DNA of 64,000 bases from Pyrenula massariospora (lineage: Eukaryota; Ascomycota; Eurotiomycetes; Pyrenulales; Pyrenulaceae): the NCBI GenBank assembly GCA_021030905.1, contig JAGFMI010000004.1, forward strand, positions 2,294,001 through 2,358,000, read 5' to 3'. The notes under the pieces are model-generated. The model did no database searches. It was not told where the DNA came from and saw only the letters and a list, made by a program, of their open reading frames with translations. The translations under genes and the position numbers were made by a program. This document shows, one piece after another, positions 4,547 to 62,619 of this stretch. Position 1 is the stretch's first letter. Each line of letters begins with the position of its first letter.

Positions 4547-6975
4547 CTTGGTGACGAGGTATATCGAACTTTCAAAATATAATTGGAAAGACGAAGCAGA
4601 TAGACAGCCTGATATACCGGGAATCAGATACGAGCCTGTGTGAAATCAGCTCCAGCCACAAGCTTACATCGGCCCCCACACTCGATGCCTGACAACCTTC
4701 AGAACGTCGGTAAGCAAATGATAGCATCCATTTGGCGAAGGTGTCAAGGCTACTGGTATCACTTGCGTGATCGGCAGGATAAGTAAAAGGAGTGCAAGCC
4801 TCTGTACGTCATAAGGTTTCGCAAGGCATTAAGAAAACTTCTACAGTCATTGCGGAAGAAGAAGACTGCCAGCTAACGAATGTCCATCCAAAATGTCTAT
4901 CAATCGTCGATGTCGGGATATTTTTCGGCGATTTAGGAGTAAACTCGCCATGGATTCACAGCACATCTCAGTCGGCAGCAGAGAGTACCAGCGAGATAAC
5001 GGACATCTGAGTATCATTCATCCTTGTAATTTCGCTGCTGGCAAGGAATGGGAGGGATGAGACGTGATCGACGGAGGCCGTCGGTCTGGACAACTCGAAA
5101 AGGCATTTGCTCTGAGTAATCTGAAAAAACGGTTGGCCGTAACACAGACACAGCAGCTACGGCACGAGCCGTACGCAGCGAGAAGTAGCACTGGGGAGAA
5201 CGGCTGAGGTGTGGCTTTTCCAATCAGGCGAACTGGTGGCCCGTCCATGAGGAATATGGTGAAGTCATTTTCACGCGCTCGGTCTCACGCCGTCCAACAG
5301 GCGGATAGCTCTCTCGACCTGCACTAGTCACGCTTGAGACTACCAAGTTGAGTTGTGGTGGCTGCAAAGGTGGTCTCAAGAAGGTATCCCCTAGATAAGA
5401 TAAGGGCCCGCGGTCCACGGCTCTTGCCGCCTGTTGCGCAAAACAGGTGCTGACAAGGTTTGATGCGCTAACTAGTTAGTTGTTCTAGCTTAGTTATTCA
5501 ACGACTCCATTCCTTCGCAATTGTTTTTTCCCACTTGCTAGGATCGTCTAGGTCGTAATTGCTTTTGTCGGCTTTCCAAATCTTGCGCTCTCTTCGGCAT
5601 CCTCACTTGTCCGACTCGGCTATCTGTAAGTTAGTAGCTGCTCTGGCTGTCCCAATCTTGGCACCGTGCACCGACGTCTTGGGCTGTGAATGCAGAAACT
5701 TTAGTAGTTTCTCGCAGAGGCTATGCGGCAGAACTTAGTCTGGAAGGAAATCGCCATCGAGCGGGAATTGCCGCCGCGAGTCTTTGGGCAGGTCAAGCCA
5801 CAGTGGAGGCTTTGACAGAGGTGACGCTATCGCAACATACAAGGACCGGCTTATCATGGCTGCCATGACCTGCCGGAATTGCAGAAATATGCGCGCGGCT
5901 CACCTCTTTCGGGTGTTAGGGTAACGTTGCTTTATACTCACCGTTTACCGCATGAGTCAGCTACCGATTGCAAGCCTTGAATATCGGATGCCTGCATTAC
6001 AGAAGCATTATCCAGAGCTAATGTGCAGATGAGCGCACCAAGCACCCGTGCATGCTACATTTAAAAGTATTGGAAAGCAAGAAGTGACAACAAGGTTTCG
6101 ATTATCTCTTATCAAGCGTGTCTACGGTGCAAGGCGATCGAAGCACCGACGGTCCAGCTCACACGACAAATCCCAGCAGCGGAGGCGAATGCACGTGCGG
6201 GAACTCCACAGCATGTGAGCAATCGCCTATCAGCTCTTCGTCGGTGACCTCTAAGCCCCCTCGCTATCTCGGGCCGCATGTCTAATGCCGTCCAGCAGCA
6301 GCAGCAGCAGCAGCTACGCGCTATTTACTGCCTTTTCGTTCCCTCTTTACTTGCATCTTAGTTTTTCTCCTCAGCCTTCAAGTGTCCTGCCGGTTCGCCA
6401 AGATTCTCTGATCCCACTCTCACCCTTTGAGTTCTTCTCTCTCCCCTGCACTCTCCTTTCTGGTGGGGAGCCATGTCATAAACGTCCAGAAATAGTCCTT
6501 TACCCGCTCGAGTAGCAACCGGAACTGCGTCTTGATGAAACTAGCTCCTATCGCGATGTCCGCCAGGCCTTCGATCGTATCCTGTATATAGGAGTCACTA
6601 CTGAACGCGGTAGATATGGCCTTATGTAGAGCAGGGCTGAATCGGTAAAGTCGCGGAAGGACATGATCAGACCGCGGAAAATCTCGGTGCTGATGCCAAG
6701 AGTTTCGAGGGCTCGTATGGTTATATAGGTAGGAGTATGGGCCGAGAAGACACTCTCGCCCCTAGTGAAGAGGTTCTAGTCGCTAATGTTGAAAGAGGTC
6801 CAGTAGGCGTCGTTTCTTGCGAGAGCTATTCGCATGAAATAACGTTTCAAGTCATAAACGGAACACGTCACTATATTTTGACGAAGTCGTTGCAAGAGAA
6901 TGGTTTCTTAATCTCGGGCCCGCCCTGTAGGCTCCACGTCCAGGCAGGAGAGACGGAAAATCATCGGTAGAACCA
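4547..6975. other. intergenic, 2.4 kb
   Basis: Contains scattered short open frames on both strands without recognisable domains, plus a short CAG microsatellite listed separately. The left end holds the promoter of the rhodopsin-domain gene. No gene can be supported. Confidence 0.45.
6293..6313. repeat. (CAG)7 microsatellite
   Basis: Seven perfect CAG units in a row. On the plus strand one frame reads a short serine run inside an unsupported open frame. It is most likely a neutral trinucleotide repeat. Confidence 0.9.
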
Positions 6976-9900
6976 TTATTCAGCCCGTCCTCGGCCGCGT
7001 GAGATGATAGACTTCCAGGCAGAGCCAATGATACCATGGCCAGGAAGCACTGGTGGAGACTTCAATTCATCTGGAAGAGACTTTCCTCTGAAGCTGCCGC
7101 TTGCCTTGTCCATGAAGCGCCTGTGGAAAGAGTTTCCGTGTTTGGTCATGCATCCTCCATGCTGAATGAGCATCCTCATCGCTCTTAGTAACGGCTCAAA
7201 GTCGCTCGCTTGCCGGCTTTTATGAAGAGTAAAATTGATCATCCAGTAATCTAAGGGAGTGCGTCCTTGGCTATCAAGGGCGTTCACGTTACCTTTGGCT
7301 TCGATCAATGGCTGAGCGAGCGCCCAGAAAAGGTGAAGGGGAGTAGTGGATATTAAGTCGGATCCAGTTCGGCAGACAAGAGTTGTATTTGGATTTTGAC
7401 CGTTGGAAAGGAGAAGCGACGAAATCTTAGACGAGTACTCAGTGAGGGGCATGAAAGCCTGATTGAAACCTTCTAAAGGTACGCCTTCGAATATTAAATC
7501 AAAAGCAGATGATTCTCGATACAAAATTGTCGAGTCTGATGTATTTTCAATGATCTCCTGTATCATTTCTACCCATATGTGCTCTGAAATTGTAAAGAAT
7601 TCAATATTAAGATGGGCATTCCATGCACATAAAACAGCACAATGGAGTATCGGTATTCCTTGAGGCTTGTCCAAAGAGCTAAATGATGGAGATCTCCTCA
7701 GTCTATCTTTGAGGTAGAGTCTAAGGCCTGCGCAAACGGCGAAAGTTGCTGCAGAATCGCAGAACCGTAGTTTCTGCTGTTTCGGAACAATGCACGGGGG
7801 ACGCGAGGTACCACTCCTTTCGAATTGACTCCATTTCCAGGAAGAGAAAACATCTGGCTCGATAGTATCCAGAAAGCTTCCCAGATGGACGCCAGTTGTG
7901 GATTCTGAAAGATTTGCGTATTTCATAGCCTTTTGCACATCCATTGGCCTTGTCTCGCTCCCCATCAGAGCATTTCTGGTGAGCCAGTATTTAGCAAGGT
8001 AGGTGGAACCATTTTCTGAGCTGAGACGGAATTGATAGGCCTGACCAACGATAGACTCTTTCACTTCGGGCTTTGCGAGGAAGTCCTTCATAGTTCGATG
8101 AATAAACTGAACTCTTTGCCGATTCCCGGGAAGAACTTCGATAAGACCGCCGCACAAATTCATAAGTTGTCGCGACATCTCAGACTCGGGTATGTGCTGG
8201 TTGATGGTCGTCTGCAAGCGCTCTAAGCTGTCTTCAAACGAGGAACCCTGAGCGCAGGCAGAAGCGTAAAATAATTCGTCAAGCCAGGTAATGTCGGTTG
8301 AACGATGTAGAATTTCAAGTAGGATGAACGCTGGATAACGGCTTCCAGGTGATATGCGGTTCACTGTTCGGCGAAAGTGTTCTTCTAATTCGTTGGGAAG
8401 ATCTAGTAGAAGTTGCCTTAGATCAGAGATGGTTGTCGCATGCCCAGACTCAACTGTAGATTCCATACGATCGAGCACAAGCCTGACCCACAGAAAAACC
8501 CCTTCCGCACGTAATGCAATCATATCAACAAACTCCTTTGACTCTTCAATGGGAGCATGATTGGACAAAATTCCTTGGAGCTTTGGCATTTCCGATATTC
8601 TTCTGTCCACATACTTCCGGACATCGTCTTGTGTCTGGTTTTGTATCCAGAAGCCCGGGCATTCACTGAAATTTTTGACGAACGCATCCCATGGTCGACT
8701 TGAGAAACATATCTTGACGCGTATGGAAGCATCGGCTGGCTGTTCACCCAAAATCTTCAACACTTTCGCGATTCTTTCGGGAGCTCCGTAGTATTCATCT
8801 AGAGCATCAAGAAATATAGTGATCATGATCTTTGACTTTTTCTGCTTGAGCACTTTCTGGAGAGCTAATTCGAGCTTGTTCATATCCCACCGTTTGGACT
8901 CTGGCTGAAGAAATGCTTGAAAAACCTTCCTGGCAATCCACCCATCTGCATTGATAAGATTCACTAGAATTGAGCGTAGCAACCCTTCATAGGACTTCTG
9001 AAGCACTGAGCCACGCTCATGAAAAAAATGCCAGATAGGCACCGATTTGTACTGCTCTAAAGTGGACCCCAGCATGTCCAAAACTTTATCATTGGTAGCT
9101 AAACGTTCTGCACATATGATTGTCATTAATCTGCTAAGCGAGTTGAAACGAAAAATCGTGGTAAAAGCAGATGATCTGAAGGCGCGCGTCCGAGTCAATT
9201 CTTCAAAAGTCAATGAGAAACGTGTACATACTCATTAAGGTTGACTTCCCAGATCCAGCTTTGCCTTTAATCCAATATATGCCACGATCAGATTGTAGCC
9301 ATGAAACAAAGCCTAGTGGTTCTCTTTGGAGGATCCATTCGAATGTGTCGGATTGCGGGTTGGTAATATCGTTGCGGCGGAAAAGCATCTCTTCAAATCT
9401 TAAACTTTGTTGTAGCTCTGTAACAGTTAGAAGGTGCTGAGCGTAACACACAGCATTGCATCTAACCATTTAGATCTTCTCCATGAATAGGTTCCTTATG
9501 TTTATCGGGGACCTTCTTAGCTCCGAAGGTAAATAGCTTCTGGGCGGCTGCGCTTGGGATGGTGTTGGTCAGACGGTTTTGTTTTGGATTCCGAATCTCT
9601 ACTTCTCCAATAGCCCGTGCAATGGCGGATATAACACTTCGATAATTGTGGTCATCCTCTGCAAATTTGACCATATTCGAATGGTCCTCATTAATTGGAA
9701 ATACGCTCTGGAGCTGTGCGCTACTCTCAACTATCGCTGATTCCTCGGGCACTAGAACCTCATGTGGCCCTGTTCGTTCCCACTTCCCGTTGGCATTTTT
9801 CTGATCAGAATGTAAGCATACTGAATACTAAATTAACTAGACGAACGCACCACGACCGTCGGAGATCGCAAGGTCTCAAAAGCGACGACAAGATTAATAT

Positions 9901-24887: not shown

Positions 24888-26354
24888 ACCATATTTCAGC
24901 CCGAGGGGATGTGCATTATATCAAGCGATCATAGGCAAAGCTGCCTAGTCCCATGATTTACGGACATAGAGGCTCTGTAACAGCGAGTGGGAGATTATGC
25001 CAACGGATGGTAGGCTGCACCGGGATTAGAAGAATCGGAAACCAAAAGATGGGGCCACATGATGTTGCTTTTGACGCGGCTGATTATAGCCACATGCGAA
25101 TTACAGCTGATGATCGATGCCTTTTTCGGTGACCGCAGCCCCGTGCAATGGGTCCAACCTACAATGTCTCGCAACGAAGGAGGGGTACTTTTGCCATTTG
25201 CCTAGCGGCATTCCGCGCACGCCACGTTTGCCTTTCCTGCCACACCATTTCCTCACCTTTAGGCAATGGGGCGAACACTCTCTCCTCCTCTCGATCCCTA
25301 GGATTTACCGCCCTTCCGTACGCCCCAGCCTTGCGGCTTACCAATAAATAGCGCATGCGGTCCAAGACCATAGAGGTTTTGCTTCCTGAAGGACTCATTT
25401 GTTTTTTCGGAACTCTTGCCGCGAGACAGACTTCGCGTCACGTTTCACAGATCGAGAGACACATCTAATCATCAGAGAAATTCGCAAGTCTAATACAATG
25501 AGGCAGTGAACCTAGTCAGTCCTTGCGACGATTGCATTGGATCGGGTATCGCACTATGATGAGCCTAGCGACTTCGAAGCTGGAGCCACAATAGGGCGAC
25601 GTGTGCCGGTCCTTCTATAGGACATGGTGGGCAGACAACAAATAATGTCTCTTGCAATCTTCTATGTGTGTCATCGCTTAAATCTTCCTTGCGCGGTCTC
25701 CAGCCATGGTTCCTCGTCGCAATAGCTAGTCCTATTTCCTGTACCGCTGGAACTTCACCGCTTCGAGGGGACGGCAACGTATTCTGGGCGTTAAACTATA
25801 ACCCACTTTGTTCGTACAGCAAAAGGCAACTGAGGCTTTGTTCGTCTTCTCTATGTGTCTTTCCGGCAAAGGGCAGATCTAGTCGTTAATCCTTCTACAT
25901 CACACCTTCGCTCAGCCTCCCAATGTAAAGAATACCCCATGGCTATGAGCGCGGGATATCGAACCTTCGCAAACCAGACTGAACCAGAGCAAGCCTATCT
26001 AATGGGTAACATTGCGGCTGGGATGGTGTTGTCGCTCACATTCAAGCAGATCATTTCTTTAGATCAACCAAATCTGATCTATGCCCCATCACCCTCCTTT
26101 ACATTTTTACTCAGCCTTCCTTTCCCCTACAGCCTCGGTACGAAAAACTTCAGATATGCGGTTGTTTCGGCCCCTGACACTCATTAAAGTATCAAAAAGC
26201 AAAACTGACCGGTGGAATTGAGCCCCATGCTACGCGCTCAACTGTGCGGCTCTGCCTTCTAATTAAAGTTGGTAGCACAAAAGATGAGGCTTCCCAGGCA
26301 ATAAGTATGAATACCGGCTGTAGCACGCGAAGCCGTATCTAAAGCTCAATTACG

Positions 26355-28161
26355 ATGGAGACCAACAACGGAATGAGTTCAGGCCAAACGGCGACTGGAT
26401 TTACTAATCCATGGAATAACCCAGAAGAAGCGTGGCAGAAGTGCAATCTACTCAGTCTTGGTATGTTTGACAATTTCATTAAATTCTCAGCGTTTGAATC
26501 TTCCTTTGGTAATGATAGTTCTGTTCTCCTTTTGACAAGATATCCAGATGGTGGAGGAGTCCGCGGCTACTGGAGCCTTCTTGTTCTTAAATATCTCATC
26601 GGGTGGATAGCCACCATTGAACAGGACCAAGATGAAAATGCGCCAATGGATGGAAGCCACGGTCATAGCTTTCACCCTGAGAGGTATCCCAAAAACGTTT
26701 CGCAGAATCTATCGGAAGATGAGAGGAAAAGTATCCGCGCCGCGGAGGCTAAGGACACGTACAACGTGCTGGACTTGGATAAGCAACGACGGTACTTACC
26801 ATGCCATTATTTTGACTACATATGTGGGTCAAGTACTGGAGCGTCAGTATACCATTATGATCATTGTCTTTCAGTAACTAACGCATGCAGATTGATCGCA
26901 ATCATGCTTGGTAGGTTGCGGATGACTGTACAGGATTGCCTTGATGAATACCAAAACCTGGTATCCCAGGTCTTCGGAAAACCTCGATATTTTACAAAGA
27001 TGGCTTTCAAAGTTGGCTTCAATAAATACAGCACCAAACGATTAGAGCAGGTCTTTCAAGGAGTAGCTACCCGGCGCTGTGAACACGATGGAGGAAAACG
27101 CAACAACTTTAAGTTCCCTTCCAGAAGAAAAGTTTGTAAGACGTAAGTAATCAGAAACAACGAAACAATGGAAGTAGCCATTAATCGTAGTCTAGCTAAC
27201 TTTCAAGTTCAGTTTTGTTACCTCTCTTGTTTCGGAGTGTGAAGAGGGCAAGCAAGAAACGACTCGTAAGAAGTACCTAATACGCTCTTACGATCATTAC
27301 GACGATATGAAGCACCGTCTTCGTTCTCAATCCCGTATGAACAGCGGTATTTCTCGGACTACCGACGTATCGAAGTATCAACCTCGCACAATCAATACTG
27401 GACCAGCCGAGCCTCTAGAGATCTGGCAGGTAGCGCGGGCCGCGACGGCTGCTCCATTGTATTTCAGACCATTCGAGGACACCGTTGACCCTGCAAACAA
27501 TACCTTTCGTCGGTTCGTCGATGGTGGACTTCACGCGCCAAACAATCCAACCTTAGAAGGTGTGCATGAAGTTAAGGAACAAAACGGTGCCAAATCTCTG
27601 AATCTTGTGGTAAGCGTCGGGACGGCACGTACAGACGAACCACCAGGGACTAGTCTCCCACAACAGATCAAGAATATGATCAGTCTAGGAAACGATCCGC
27701 AGCCGGTCCATGAGTCGGTTCTTAGAGAGGCAGGGCCCGAAAAGAGCGCTTTCGAATACTTTCGTTTCAATGCTGCCGAGGGTACGGGAGTTGAAATGGA
27801 CGAATGTAAGCCAAAACGTGGAAATATGCCGGGGTGCAAGACTTTGCAAACGCTAAGAACCCATTTCGATGCTTGGGTGCAACGACCGGAAAACGCAACG
27901 GCCCTCTGGCGTTGTGCGGTTCTCCTAGTTAAGCAACGAAGAGAAAGAACTAAGGAGAAAGGAAGATGGGAGACATTCTCGACCGGATCGACTTACCGTT
28001 GCCCTGTTGATGGGTGCGATGATATTTCGTTGAGCAGGGATGAATTGACAAGTCATATGAAGCAAAAGCACAATGAAACAATTGATGATGAGGCCGTCAG
28101 AGACTTGCTGGATGCTTGGCAGTACAGGAAAGAGACAGGGGTAATATCCTCTTCGATATAA
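26355..28161 (+). CDS. patatin-like phospholipase with C-terminal C2H2 zinc finger
   Basis: Four exons (26355-26460, 26548-26842, 26891-27142, 27213-28161; introns 87, 48 and 70 bp, all ending CAG) give 533 residues. Splicing restores the oxyanion motif DGGGVRGY at residues 36-43 and the nucleophile elbow GSSTGALIAIML (Ser131). ATAAPLYF and FVDGGL (Asp321-Gly323) complete the Ser-Asp dyad site, so the enzyme looks catalytically whole. Members are cytosolic or membrane-associated acyl hydrolases acting on phospholipids. After the patatin fold, residues 479-504 form a C-x4-C-x12-H-x4-H finger (Cys481, Cys486, His499, His504) followed by an acidic helix. No NACHT or ankyrin region follows, so this is a free patatin and not a patatin NLR. 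Fungal patatins are also used as effector domains in cell-death NLRs. Confidence 0.9.
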
Positions 28162-50943: not shown

Positions 50944-53033
50944 ATGGATCCAGCTTCTGCCATCGCGCTCGCCGGATCAATTATGGGCATCGCCGACAAA
51001 GTCCTTCAGACTGCTAACCGGCTGAGCTTACTTCAGGTAAAATATAAGCAAGCGGATATTTCGGTTTCTCTGTTGATCGGTCAAATATTTACCACTCAGA
51101 CTGCGTTGAAACAGCTTGCAAATCTACAGCAGGATAATGCTTCGAGTCTCTATTCGTCTGGGCCGGAAGCCTTCGATGGGCTTGCGATCTCTCTTGACGG
51201 ATGCGACACCCTTTTTGCCTCCTTGAATAAACATCTGAATGACTTGGAGAGACGCGCAGAAGGTGAACTCAGTATGAGAGGCAAACTGTCCCTGTTATGG
51301 CGCGAGAATGAGATCAAGGAATACCTGGCTATGCTAGATCGATACATCAATGTCTTAAACCTTTTATTGCATGTCATGCAATGGTACGTCAATTGTACCT
51401 CTTCTACGTTGTGGCCTAATTCTCACGTTCTTACAGCAAAAATTCGAACGAACAACGTACGCTTCTGAGAGATGAAGAGAGTATTACGATCCTCAGACTC
51501 GCTCGCGAATGCACGGAATCTCTCTATCCGTTAGATAATACAAGCCTTGACATTGAACGAAGAAGTATCTTTACACAAGATACATCTAATCTTAGCACCC
51601 AATTTGACTTTGACCGTATTCTCCTAGGTTCTCGAGCCTATCATGCGGCCTTCAAGATTAATGTTCGAGATCTCATTCACCAGAGAGCAAACTCTCGGCT
51701 TTCGTACGATACCATGAATAAAGAGGCAATATCGGAATTACCAGCAGCATCAGATAAAGACGACGCCACTAACAAGACGCCTGCGAAATACCCAAGCGAG
51801 ACCAAAGATTGTCGCTTCCAGTCATTGAATTCAGACCAGACCGTAGATTGCACAAAGACAAACGCACGCTTGTGGCAGCTTCGACACTACGCCCTTTCGC
51901 CGCTTTCGTTTACCCGGCGCTGGAGTGAAAGTGTAAGAAAGACCCCGAAGATCGAAGCTGCGGCCTCGGCCTCAAGCTTGTCCCCCCAGCTGGAACCACT
52001 GGAAGCGAAGACTCTACTTCTGGGCACTTCCGAGAGCGGGAAATCTACGCTTTTGAAGGCTTTCAAATTGATGCATGAAGACTACTCCCGGGAGGAACGG
52101 GATTTATTTAAGAAAATTATATTCGACAACGCTGTTCAGGGTATGAGAACCATATTGGAGGCCATGGAGAAACTTGAGCTCCCGCTCCAAGATCATGAGA
52201 AGAATGAATATCACGTGCACACAATTTTCATGCAGCCTTGCCTGCTAGAGTTTGACCGCTTGCCTAGCAGTGTGAGCAACGCACTGAAAGCGCTTTGGAC
52301 TGATGAAGGCGTACAATATGCCTATAGCCGTCGACGAGAGTACCAAGTCACTTCAAGCTTGGCCTACTACTTGGATGAGATTAGCCGCATAGGATCCCCA
52401 GAGTATATTCCAGACACGAAAGACATGGTCAGAAGTCGCGTCAAAACCACTAAGATAACAGAAACCTCCTTTGATGACGCATATCGATCTGGAGTTTCAT
52501 GGCGTGTGTTTGATGTTGGGGGGGCACGCTCTCTACGCAAGGGATGGATTCGTCTTTTTGCAGACGTGGATTTGATCTTCTTCATTGTCGATGCATGTTG
52601 TTATGATAAGGTGCTATTTGAGGACGAAACCGTAAACCGTATGCCAGAAGCAATAACATTATGGGACAGCCTCGTCAACAGTAGATGGTTCATCAAGACA
52701 TCATTTGTGCTCGTTTTTACTCATGCAGACCAGCTAGCTTCATGTATAGCTGAGATGCAGCCCCATGTATATTTCCCAGATCTTAACGAGGACATTTCGG
52801 TGAAAGAGTTTGAGATCTTCTTGGAAAAAAAGTTTCTGGACTTTGTCAAGGAGAAAGAGACGCGACCGCAGATCAAGGTAATATTCGAGAGCTTTACGGA
52901 AGACCCTGTCGGAGCAGCAAGCAGACTTCTTCAGCATGGCCGGGAGGCAGTCCTGGCACAGCGAGCGCAGATCTCCAGTCTTCACACTCGGGATGACCAA
53001 GGAGTTAAGAGTAGGGGGAAAGCGTCACGTTGA
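50944..53033 (+). CDS. HeLo/PigL_N-like domain fused to a divergent G-protein alpha domain
   Basis: Two exons (50944-51383, 51437-53033; 53-bp intron GTACGT...TTACAG) give 678 residues. Residues 1-150 start MDPASAIALAGSIMGIADKV and are all-helical, matching the N-terminal domain (PF17111-like, HeLo/PigL_N group) that precedes NACHT or other modules in fungal STAND-type proteins. A linker with FDFDRILLGSRAYHAAFK follows, then a Ser/Lys-rich stretch. Residues 335-655 are a G-alpha domain: P-loop LLGTSESGKST (341-351), helical insert, switch I RSRVKTTKITET (479-490), switch II DVGGARSLRKGW (506-517), then LFEDETVNRMPEAITLWDSL. Departures from active G-alpha are clear: DVGGQ is DVGGA, so the catalytic Gln is Ala; NKxD is THAD; no TCAT motif; no N-terminal lipid site. 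It probably binds nucleotide differently and hydrolyses GTP poorly. Partner and trigger are unknown. Confidence 0.85.
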
Positions 53034-60555: not shown

Positions 60556-62619
60556 TCACGTCAAGAAATTCACCACAAGTGAGAGCTTTGGGTTTCTTTG
60601 AATGGCAACGTCAAGATCTCGATCGCTCATGAGTTCTACCATCTGCCCATTGCTGGCCTCGTCTTTGTACTGTACCATTACATCTTCGTTGATTTTCAGT
60701 CGCTCTCGTATCTTCTCAACGAGAGCGCGAAATGAGATGTCATTTGGCACTCGAATCGAGATGATCTCGTGCTCAAAAAATATCTTGATTTTGAGCGTAC
60801 CAGCGGGATTGGCATTTACCGGGGTCGTTGCTTGCCCATAACCTGCATTATTGGCACCATTGCCATTGCTTGTGGCCTGTGTGAAGCTCGGCTGCTTATT
60901 CATTGGCGGATACTGGCCGTTGGTAGCAGACAAGGAAGGGTTACCACGCTGGTGTGTTGGACGCGCTGACTGTTGACCGTATGCTCCCCCACCGTTCATC
61001 TGACCCCTCGATGATTGCCTCGAAGCGGTGCGCGATGGCGCCTGCACAGACGATTGCTGTGAGGCTCCAGATAATCGATACTCCTCTCCTAATGCGCTTG
61101 GATCGATCTCGTAATCACTCGAACGTGGCTGGAACAACTGCCTTACTAACATCGACCTGCTGATGTGAGGTGGCAATGCTAGAACCAGCTTGACGTACTC
61201 GTCAAGATTCTGTTTCCGGCCGGCGCTGATCGCGTCTGTCACATGGGCCACTGGTCCGGGCATATAAGGGATAGTGCGAGGTTTGCCGCCATTTCCTGCC
61301 TCCTCGGGGAACTTATTGAGCAATGCGATCTGAAAATCGTAAAAGTCGGCATAGAATCTTCGTAACTCCCACCATCTGCCATCCTCCATCTGACATTCCA
61401 CAATATAGTAGTATACGTCATTATCAAAGATATACCGCGGGATAGAAACAGATACAGGGGCGAGTAGCTGAGGTCGCGATTGCCGGTAGCCATAGTCCGC
61501 CTGGCTCTGACTGTTGTTGTTCTGGTGAAAGGACTGTTGCTGCTGTGGCATCTGTTGCTACAATTGATAATTTAGGTTAGTCCACTATTTCTACCGAAGA
61601 CCGGGTAAGGAAATGACCCACGTAAGAGCTGTTTGCCTGATTGTATTGTTGATCTGGCGGCTGGGTTGGGCCATTTAAGCTCATTCTCCCCATGTCCGAA
61701 GTCATCGACTGCTGGGACGGTGCATCAAATTTTCCGAGACTGATGCTGCTGTTCTTATAGTCCGCAGCCATCTTCTTCCATTCCTCGACTTTGGGGACGC
61801 CTGCTCTTTGAACAGCCTCGTGCGGGTCGGTCACAGCTTGACCTGTTGACATGTCTCTGATCTCAATGAAGGATACCGGTATCAGACCTGGACCGCCCAG
61901 TCTACCAATCGGCTTTGCAACAAACCATTCAGGGTTAGATTGCGCAATCACGATGATAGCTTCGCCTGATTTTGCTTCGAGTTCATCGGGCCGCTCTGCG
62001 TTAAAATCATACATAACCATGCCGTATACCATCGCACCTGAACCTTTCATCATGTTGGACATTCTGATGCCGCCGCCTGTCCGCATTGTATTCACAGACT
62101 CGGATCTCCCATGCGTCTGCTTTTCTGAGTACCCTGAGTCATGGGCCTCCCCTGGTTTTACAGCAGCCCCAACGTCTTTCATTGACCCCGCACTAGCTCT
62201 CTCCTGCTTTCCAATGACCTCAAAGTAGGCCACAGGTACTAGACCTCTTGCGGTGGGTATCAGAGGATTGCAAGCTTCATACCAGTCCGGATCGTCTTCT
62301 CGGCTGATGACGTGAAAGAAGTCACCGCGGTGGAACGCCAACTGCTGCCCATTGCCATCGGTTGGCTCGAAGTCGTATAGGGCTTTGATAACCTACGACG
62401 GATCAGTCGCCGGCGCTACAGGACATTGCTTGGTGATGCGGGGCTCACCTTCTTAGGAGGAACTATGGATACGGCGTCTTTGGGAGTTAGGGAAACATGT
62501 TGTGGCTTCGCATCCTTATCTCCTTTCAAGGAACGTCGAAGCGCCTGTGAGGAATGATCAGTCGGCAAGCGCACCACGGAATGAGGCGTGAAAGCTAGGT
62601 TTTCAAGACGGACCTTCAT
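60556..62619 (-). CDS. bem1: polarity scaffold protein BEM1 (SH3-SH3-PX-PB1)
   Basis: Five exons with a 6-bp first exon (62619-62614, 62544-62449, 62392-61622, 61557-60556 plus the start exon coding only Met-Lys) give 624 residues. MK is spliced to ALRRSLKGDKD and SIVPPKKVIKALYDFEP. SH3-1 spans about 35-100 (ALYDF, WYEACNP, GLVPVAYFEVI), SH3-2 about 155-212 (MYDFNAERPDELEAKSGE, GLIPVSFIEI), PX about 324-440 (ARYIF-type basic strand then RRFYADFYDFQIALL) and PB1 543-624 (KIKIFFEHEIISIRV, ending LVVNFLT). A Gln/Ser/Asn-rich linker joins PX and PB1. BEM1 links Cdc42, its exchange factor (through PB1) and PAK kinase at sites of polar growth; PX binds phosphoinositides. Order and length match filamentous-fungal BEM1. 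In the exon list above there are four coding segments in total, the first being the 6-bp one. Confidence 0.95.

Follow-up and report, generated by a model that had tools for sequence, protein, structure and literature searches.

In the 64,000-nucleotide window analysed here, a gene on the forward strand (hereafter W; positions 50944-53033) encodes a protein of 678 residues that begins with a helical domain and ends with a G-alpha domain. The coding frame runs through 678 codons, all of them open, and its features are listed below in window coordinates.

50944 to 51383, plus strand: exon 1, encoding a HeLo-like (PigL_N, PF17111-type) helical domain (residues 1-146 and two bases of codon 147).
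51384 to 51436, plus strand: intron of 53 bp in phase 2, GTACGT...ACAG (GT..AG).
51437 to 53033, plus strand: exon 2, encoding a conserved mid region, a variable linker, the G-alpha domain, a tail and the stop.
51603 to 51668, plus strand: segment FDFDxxLLxSxxY...R (residues 203-224), common to relatives of the N-terminal domain that have no in-frame G-alpha.
51990 to 52898, plus strand: G-alpha domain (residues 332-634; PF00503, 276.5 bits).
52023 to 52049, plus strand: P-loop GTSESGKST (residues 343-351), with Ser345 in place of Gly42 of Gi, the equivalent of Ras Gly12.
52437 to 52448, plus strand: switch I RVKT (residues 481-484), in which the catalytic Arg and the Mg-binding Thr are retained.
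52512 to 52529, plus strand: switch II DVGGAR (residues 506-511), with Ala510 in place of the catalytic Gln204.
52719 to 52730, plus strand: THAD at the NKxD position (residues 575-578), with Asp578 retained.

The HeLo-like/G-alpha fusion is real. A preliminary description had placed both domains in one gene across a single intron, and this is borne out by two paralogs in the same genome, L016 and L017, which have the same order of parts. At all three loci the intron follows codon 146 in phase 2, with lengths of 55 bp in L016, 61 bp in L017 and 53 bp in W, and the recurrence of this architecture and intron at two further loci puts the fusion beyond chance. A chance joining of neighbouring genes is ruled out by the same three-locus agreement, and separate transcripts for the two exons of W are disfavoured by the shared intron position and phase. 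A single in-frame TAG interrupts L017 where switch II has its Trp (Trp211; reverse strand, near 4570), and this copy is likely a pseudogene or the source of a truncated product.

Identity among the three fused copies is 63-68% over residues 1-146, 62-71% over residues 147-215, 34-40% in the linker and 42-53% in the G-alpha domain. For the N-terminal, mid and G-alpha regions dS ranges from 1.3 to infinite, close to saturation of synonymous sites; pN/pS is 0.23-0.29 in the N-terminal and mid regions, 0.45-0.54 in the G-alpha domain, 0.63-0.72 in the linker and 0.59-0.79 in the tail. With synonymous sites so close to saturation, this pattern indicates that both domains are constrained, the N-terminus more so. 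A PF00503 profile search of the genome (37.8 Mb in 33 contigs) gave 15 match rows, 12 of which correspond to seven G-alpha genes: W, L016, L017, L020 and the canonical L018, L019 and L021. The three weaker rows are L012-L014, and the two that were inspected resemble Arf-type GTPases by eye. Pattern searches of prokaryote contigs with the G-alpha part (32 matches) and of viral contigs with the N-terminal alignment (349 matches) and the G-alpha part (9 matches) gave no confirmed case, and these collections are silent on distribution among fungi.

The preliminary description had named PF17111 and PF00503 as the families to look for. The second was matched clearly by W (276.5 bits, E 3.9e-82, profile positions 20-314 of 333; cut-off 48.8 bits), but PF17111 fell short of its Pfam cut-off of 27.2 bits, scoring 22.8 bits (E 6.5e-5) with exon 1 and 22.4 bits (E 8.7e-5) with the full protein. 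Among the paralog N-termini, that of L016 also scored below the cut-off (19.5 bits) and that of L017 just above it (27.3 bits). A profile-profile comparison was then made between an alignment of the W-type N-termini (A4; W, L016, L017 and L058) and one of PF17111-type domains from the same genome (A3; L027, L031, L046, L022, L023 and L028, of which L046 lies below the cut-off and the other five above it). This gave a probability of 95.1% and an E-value of 3e-8 over 131 columns, against 0.5% and 0.13 for a reversed-sequence control, which argues, at the level of sequence, that the N-terminal domain of W is homologous to the PF17111-type domains of this genome. PF17111 corresponds to the ‘HeLo-like’ family of the fungal NLR literature (available text of PMC9815663), a family that occurs in death and NLR proteins (PMC9815663 and PMC12881547, same limitation) and is described in the available text of PMC12881547 as related to 4HB and MLKL domains, with a membrane role.

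A single-sequence AlphaFold2 model of exon 1 (mean pLDDT 74.4) comprises helices at residues 3-36, 42-64, 74-107 and 111-145. When this model was used for a fold search, the matches were at the level of a helical bundle only (best Foldseek E 0.041), the top VIA rows including IncA, a V-ATPase rotor and Rx-CC. MLKL and HET-S were absent from the matches listed, an absence that excludes nothing. By the hydrophobicity of its first helix, W could not be told apart from its relatives or from the copies carried by NLRs. Downstream of the bundle, F203, F205, D206, L209, Y215 and R224 are invariant in all six sequences of alignment A2, from which L060 was left out, and the FDFDxxLLxSxxY...R segment to which they belong is a possible docking or assembly motif. 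The closer relatives of the W N-terminus are L058 (28% identity) and L059 and L061 (25-26%), in frames with no recognised partner over cut-off, and a further relative, L060, has an SH3-like region downstream in a neighbouring frame, with SH3 below the Pfam cut-off; for these four loci the partners are read from frames rather than from gene models.

HeLo-type and NACHT domains are plentiful in this genome, with at least 31 match rows for PF17111, 20 for HeLo (PF14479) and 65 for NACHT. Four PF17111 loci, picked for their long frames and so not a sample, were inspected for partner domains. In L027 and L031 the PF17111 domain is followed by NPHP3_N/NACHT, with PF17111 and NACHT both over cut-off; in L046 NPHP3_N is over cut-off and the PF17111 and NACHT scores are below; L037 has ankyrin repeats, with PF17111 below cut-off. 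The usual partners of HeLo-like domains are NACHT or NB-ARC switches or amyloid motifs, according to the portions available of PMC12258605 and PMC12881547. The earlier suggestion that G-alpha occupies in W the place where NACHT usually sits is therefore fair as a statement of architecture, as PF17111 precedes NPHP3_N/NACHT-type NTPases in L027, L031 and L046. W resembles these STAND proteins in that a helical N-terminus, homologous between them, leads into a nucleotide-binding module of the P-loop type, but in W this module is a G-alpha rather than a NACHT, and no repeat domain comes after it. Neither NACHT nor NB-ARC is among the ten Pfam families listed for the W protein at E up to 1.

The G-alpha part of W has Gi alpha-2 as its best PDB match (205.7 bits). 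In a tblastn comparison with the other G-alphas of the genome, the class-I gene L018 was the best match, aligning in two pieces, at 51% and 53% identity, over approximately residues 329-595. A midpoint-rooted tree of eight rows unites the G-alphas of W, L016 and L017 (100/100) and joins L018 to them (99/97); three of the five inner branches of this tree are weak, L020 sits on a long branch, and the trimming of the canonical sequences was manual. L018, a canonical, Gi-like class-I gene, starts with MGCGMS, carries Gly42, Gln204 and NKID, and has introns within the domain, including one that interrupts the P-loop. None of the three fused copies has the lipid site, the Gln, the NKxD motif or those introns; as to Gly42, L017 has it and W and L016 do not. 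The W protein begins MDPASA, and the lack of an MGxxxS lipidation site noted in the preliminary description thus holds. An intronless fused G-alpha beside an intron-bearing L018 would be compatible with intron loss or with capture of a processed copy. The receptor-binding tail had been reported missing, but all three fused copies retain a C-terminal helix region, with 41 residues beyond the TCAT-equivalent in W, 24 in L016 and 34 in L017; it is divergent and non-canonical, with FE.F..DP..A.SR common to the three. A single-sequence AlphaFold2 model of the G-alpha part had a mean pLDDT of 38.0 and was not used.

Key positions are given below with Gi numbering, for the fused copies in the order W/L016/L017 and, where shown, for the canonical L018, L021, L019.

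Gly42: S/S/G; canonical G, G, G.
Lys46: K/K/K.
Ser47: S/S/S.
Thr48: T/P/T.
Arg178 (switch I): R/R/Y; canonical R, R, R.
Thr181 (switch I): T/I/T; canonical T, T, T.
Gly203: G/W/G; canonical G, G, G.
Gln204 (switch II): A/L/A; canonical Q, Q, Q.
Arg205: R/R/G; canonical R, R, R.
Arg208: R/R/V; canonical R, R, R.
Lys210: G/K/Y; canonical K, K, K.
Glu245: E/E/E; canonical E, E, E.
Asn269: T/T/T; canonical N, N, N.
Lys270: H/R/M; canonical K, K, K.
Asp272: D/D/D; canonical D, D, D.

The equivalents of K46, S47, D200, G202, E245 and D272 are retained in all three fused copies. Of the three, only W has every Mg and phosphate ligand: Lys-Ser in the P-loop, Arg and Thr in switch I, and DxxG. It also keeps the Gly-Arg-Glu switch triad, the guanine-reading Asp and, in switch II, Arg511, Arg514 and Trp517. 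L016 has lost the switch-I Thr and Gly203, and L017 the switch-I Arg, Arg205 and Arg208. As these two paralogs lack different switch residues, a working GTP switch is not a family-wide property: what the fused copies have in common is that the catalytic Gln is gone and that Lys/Ser in the P-loop and the Asp persist, and only W appears switch-competent.

The preliminary description was correct as to the Ala at the switch-II Gln and the retained switch-I Arg and Thr, and tabulation across the homologs of this genome, as it had advised, shows that both the Gln and NKxD are lost in all three fused copies, the Gln being present in all three canonical ones. It also took the P-loop to be intact; ESGKST is indeed present, from residue 346, but the Ser at the Gly42 position immediately before it had been missed. 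DVGGAR begins at residue 506 and THAD at residue 575, as read before, but the loss of guanine selection drawn from THAD is unsupported. Its counterparts are TRTD in L016 and TMTD in L017, so that the Asp alone of the motif is kept in all three copies, and Rho-type GTPases ordinarily have TxxD. On these two grounds W has probably retained guanine selection, and we have set aside a loss of guanine binding.

In Gi1, G42V and Q204L are GTPase-deficient, G42R blocks the active state but not hydrolysis, and at the Ras Gly12 site every residue except Pro is activating (PMC3285607, from the text available, in which a Ser variant at Gi1 position 42 is not described). Given the effect of G42R, Ser345 could act otherwise than G42V does. 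W would be a natural G42/Q204 double variant, and it is directly testable, as both positions have already been mutated by biochemists to alter G-alpha (PMC3285607, as above).

Our best reading, tentative and a little short of an even chance, is that of a GTPase-impaired G-alpha of class-I descent which keeps hold of, or presents, a HeLo-like bundle, with MLKL and the plant XLG proteins as analogues. A class-I (Gi-like) fungal G-alpha would have become the C-terminal module of a HeLo-like bundle protein, giving rise to a small paralogous family, and the fused G-alpha would then have lost GTP hydrolysis. The retained phosphate and Mg ligands, Asp and triad, set beside the Gly42-to-Ser and Gln204-to-Ala changes, suggest that W may bind guanine nucleotide and remain GTP-bound once loaded, or may be a fixed, nucleotide-stabilised scaffold, in either case with no cycling. 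Through a putative coupling, the G-alpha module would keep in place, or present, the N-terminal bundle with its conserved FDFD segment, until nucleotide loading, a partner or nucleotide loss acted as the trigger that frees the bundle. Once free, the bundle might be targeted to membranes, or might make homotypic contacts with the many HeLo, HeLo-like and NLR proteins of the genome. Counting against this reading are the differences between the paralogs at other switch residues, the in-frame TAG of L017 and the different effect of G42R, and W may be one step behind its paralogs in switch loss. The close N-terminal relatives in partnerless frames or before an SH3-like region also count against the bundle as a membrane effector.

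The likeness to MLKL is by analogy: in MLKL a helical bundle from the HeLo/4HB superfamily is coupled to a module that is no longer catalytic (PMC12881547, in its available text), and W would have the same make-up. MLKL has a pseudokinase where W would have a pseudo-GTPase; the link of the W bundle to 4HB rests on the PF17111-type homology, a relation not seen in the fold search. It is unlikely that W is a fungal equivalent of MLKL, with a G-alpha of class-I origin that no longer hydrolyses GTP and gates a membrane-active HeLo-like bundle. If it were, heterotrimeric G-protein signalling and the fungal immune or cell-death machinery would be directly linked at the molecular level.

A possible, if somewhat doubtful, alternative is an adaptor in the manner of the plant XLG proteins, in which the G-alpha would be a nucleotide-stabilised interaction module (for example for G-beta-gamma or for former class-I partners) and the bundle a scaffold or localisation domain with no death-effector role. 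The partnerless L058, L059 and L061, and L060 before its sub-cut-off SH3-like region, suggest an adaptor-type subfamily, and the switch-II Arg511, Arg514 and Trp517 of W fit well with this. However, the region of the alpha-N helix, which helps hold G-beta-gamma, is replaced by a linker in W, where Lys210 is also a Gly, and the Trp211 position of L017 is a stop. The N-terminus moreover belongs to the family of death and NLR proteins (PMC9815663 and PMC12881547, as far as available). XLGs themselves combine a large N-terminal extension with a C-terminal G-alpha of weak or no hydrolysis (available text of PMC13185490), but their N-terminus is cysteine-rich with a putative NLS and that of W is HeLo-like, and the two architectures are likely of independent origin.

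It is rather improbable that the fusion was formerly a working switch and is now a decaying family of duplicates, losing function copy by copy. Such decay would be in keeping with the TAG in one of three copies, the loss of different switch residues in L016 and L017, and the faster evolution of the G-alpha part than of the N-terminus. Against this, W is open throughout with a GT-AG intron, the P-loop Lys/Ser and the TxxD Asp are retained in all three copies, and neutral decay would not keep the N-terminal and G-alpha identities given above when synonymous sites are nearly saturated. Given the pN/pS pattern, simple decay is not preferred as the whole story. A very improbable alternative is a locked-off switch, in which Ser345 would block the active conformation as G42R does and leave W permanently imitating the inactive state and sequestering G-beta-gamma or GoLoco-type partners: G42R mutants favour both in any nucleotide state (PMC3285607, in part) and L016 combines the same Ser with Gly203 to Trp, but Ser is small, unlike Arg, activation is the rule for substitutions at the Ras site, and the additional loss of Gln204 fits a loss of hydrolysis better than a loss of activation.

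Returning to the GTPase-impaired G-alpha that holds or presents a bundle, a G-alpha in the place of NACHT, stripped of hydrolysis residues but with its phosphate and Mg ligands, would, if true, mean that parts of the heterotrimeric G-protein system have been co-opted to regulate an immune-type bundle. No description of a HeLo-like and G-alpha protein was found in the open-access literature, as judged from titles and the starts of abstracts among the matches listed, and there may well be database entries of this architecture that are still uncharacterised. In the text available, PMC12258605 makes no mention of g-alpha or gtpase, PMC12881547 none of g protein, gtpase or heterotrimeric, and PMC9815663 none of gtpase.

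A second locus with a helical N-terminus and a G-alpha, L020 (G000:C29, near 1695602-1696643, minus strand), has a SesA/PigL_N-like N-terminus, both families scoring below their Pfam cut-offs, upstream of a divergent G-alpha. Its P-loop, GPGHSGKTT, is split by an intron, switch II reads DTGGER with Glu for the catalytic Gln, and TKQD stands at the NKxD position. The first two frames join poorly, and the locus may be interrupted or hold an extra intron. In the tree L020 lies, on its long branch, outside the fused trio, and its origin is apparently separate from theirs; if so, L020 would point to more than one invention of the design.

Three further loci were seen by eye in the window. A long frame at 6976-9231 (minus strand) is NACHT/STAND-like, and two frames at 26343-28161 (plus strand) resemble a patatin-like phospholipase, a type that also serves as an NLR N-terminal domain (PMC12258605, in part). 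At 60556-62392 (minus strand) lies a Bem1-like scaffold, with SH3, PX and PB1 segments.
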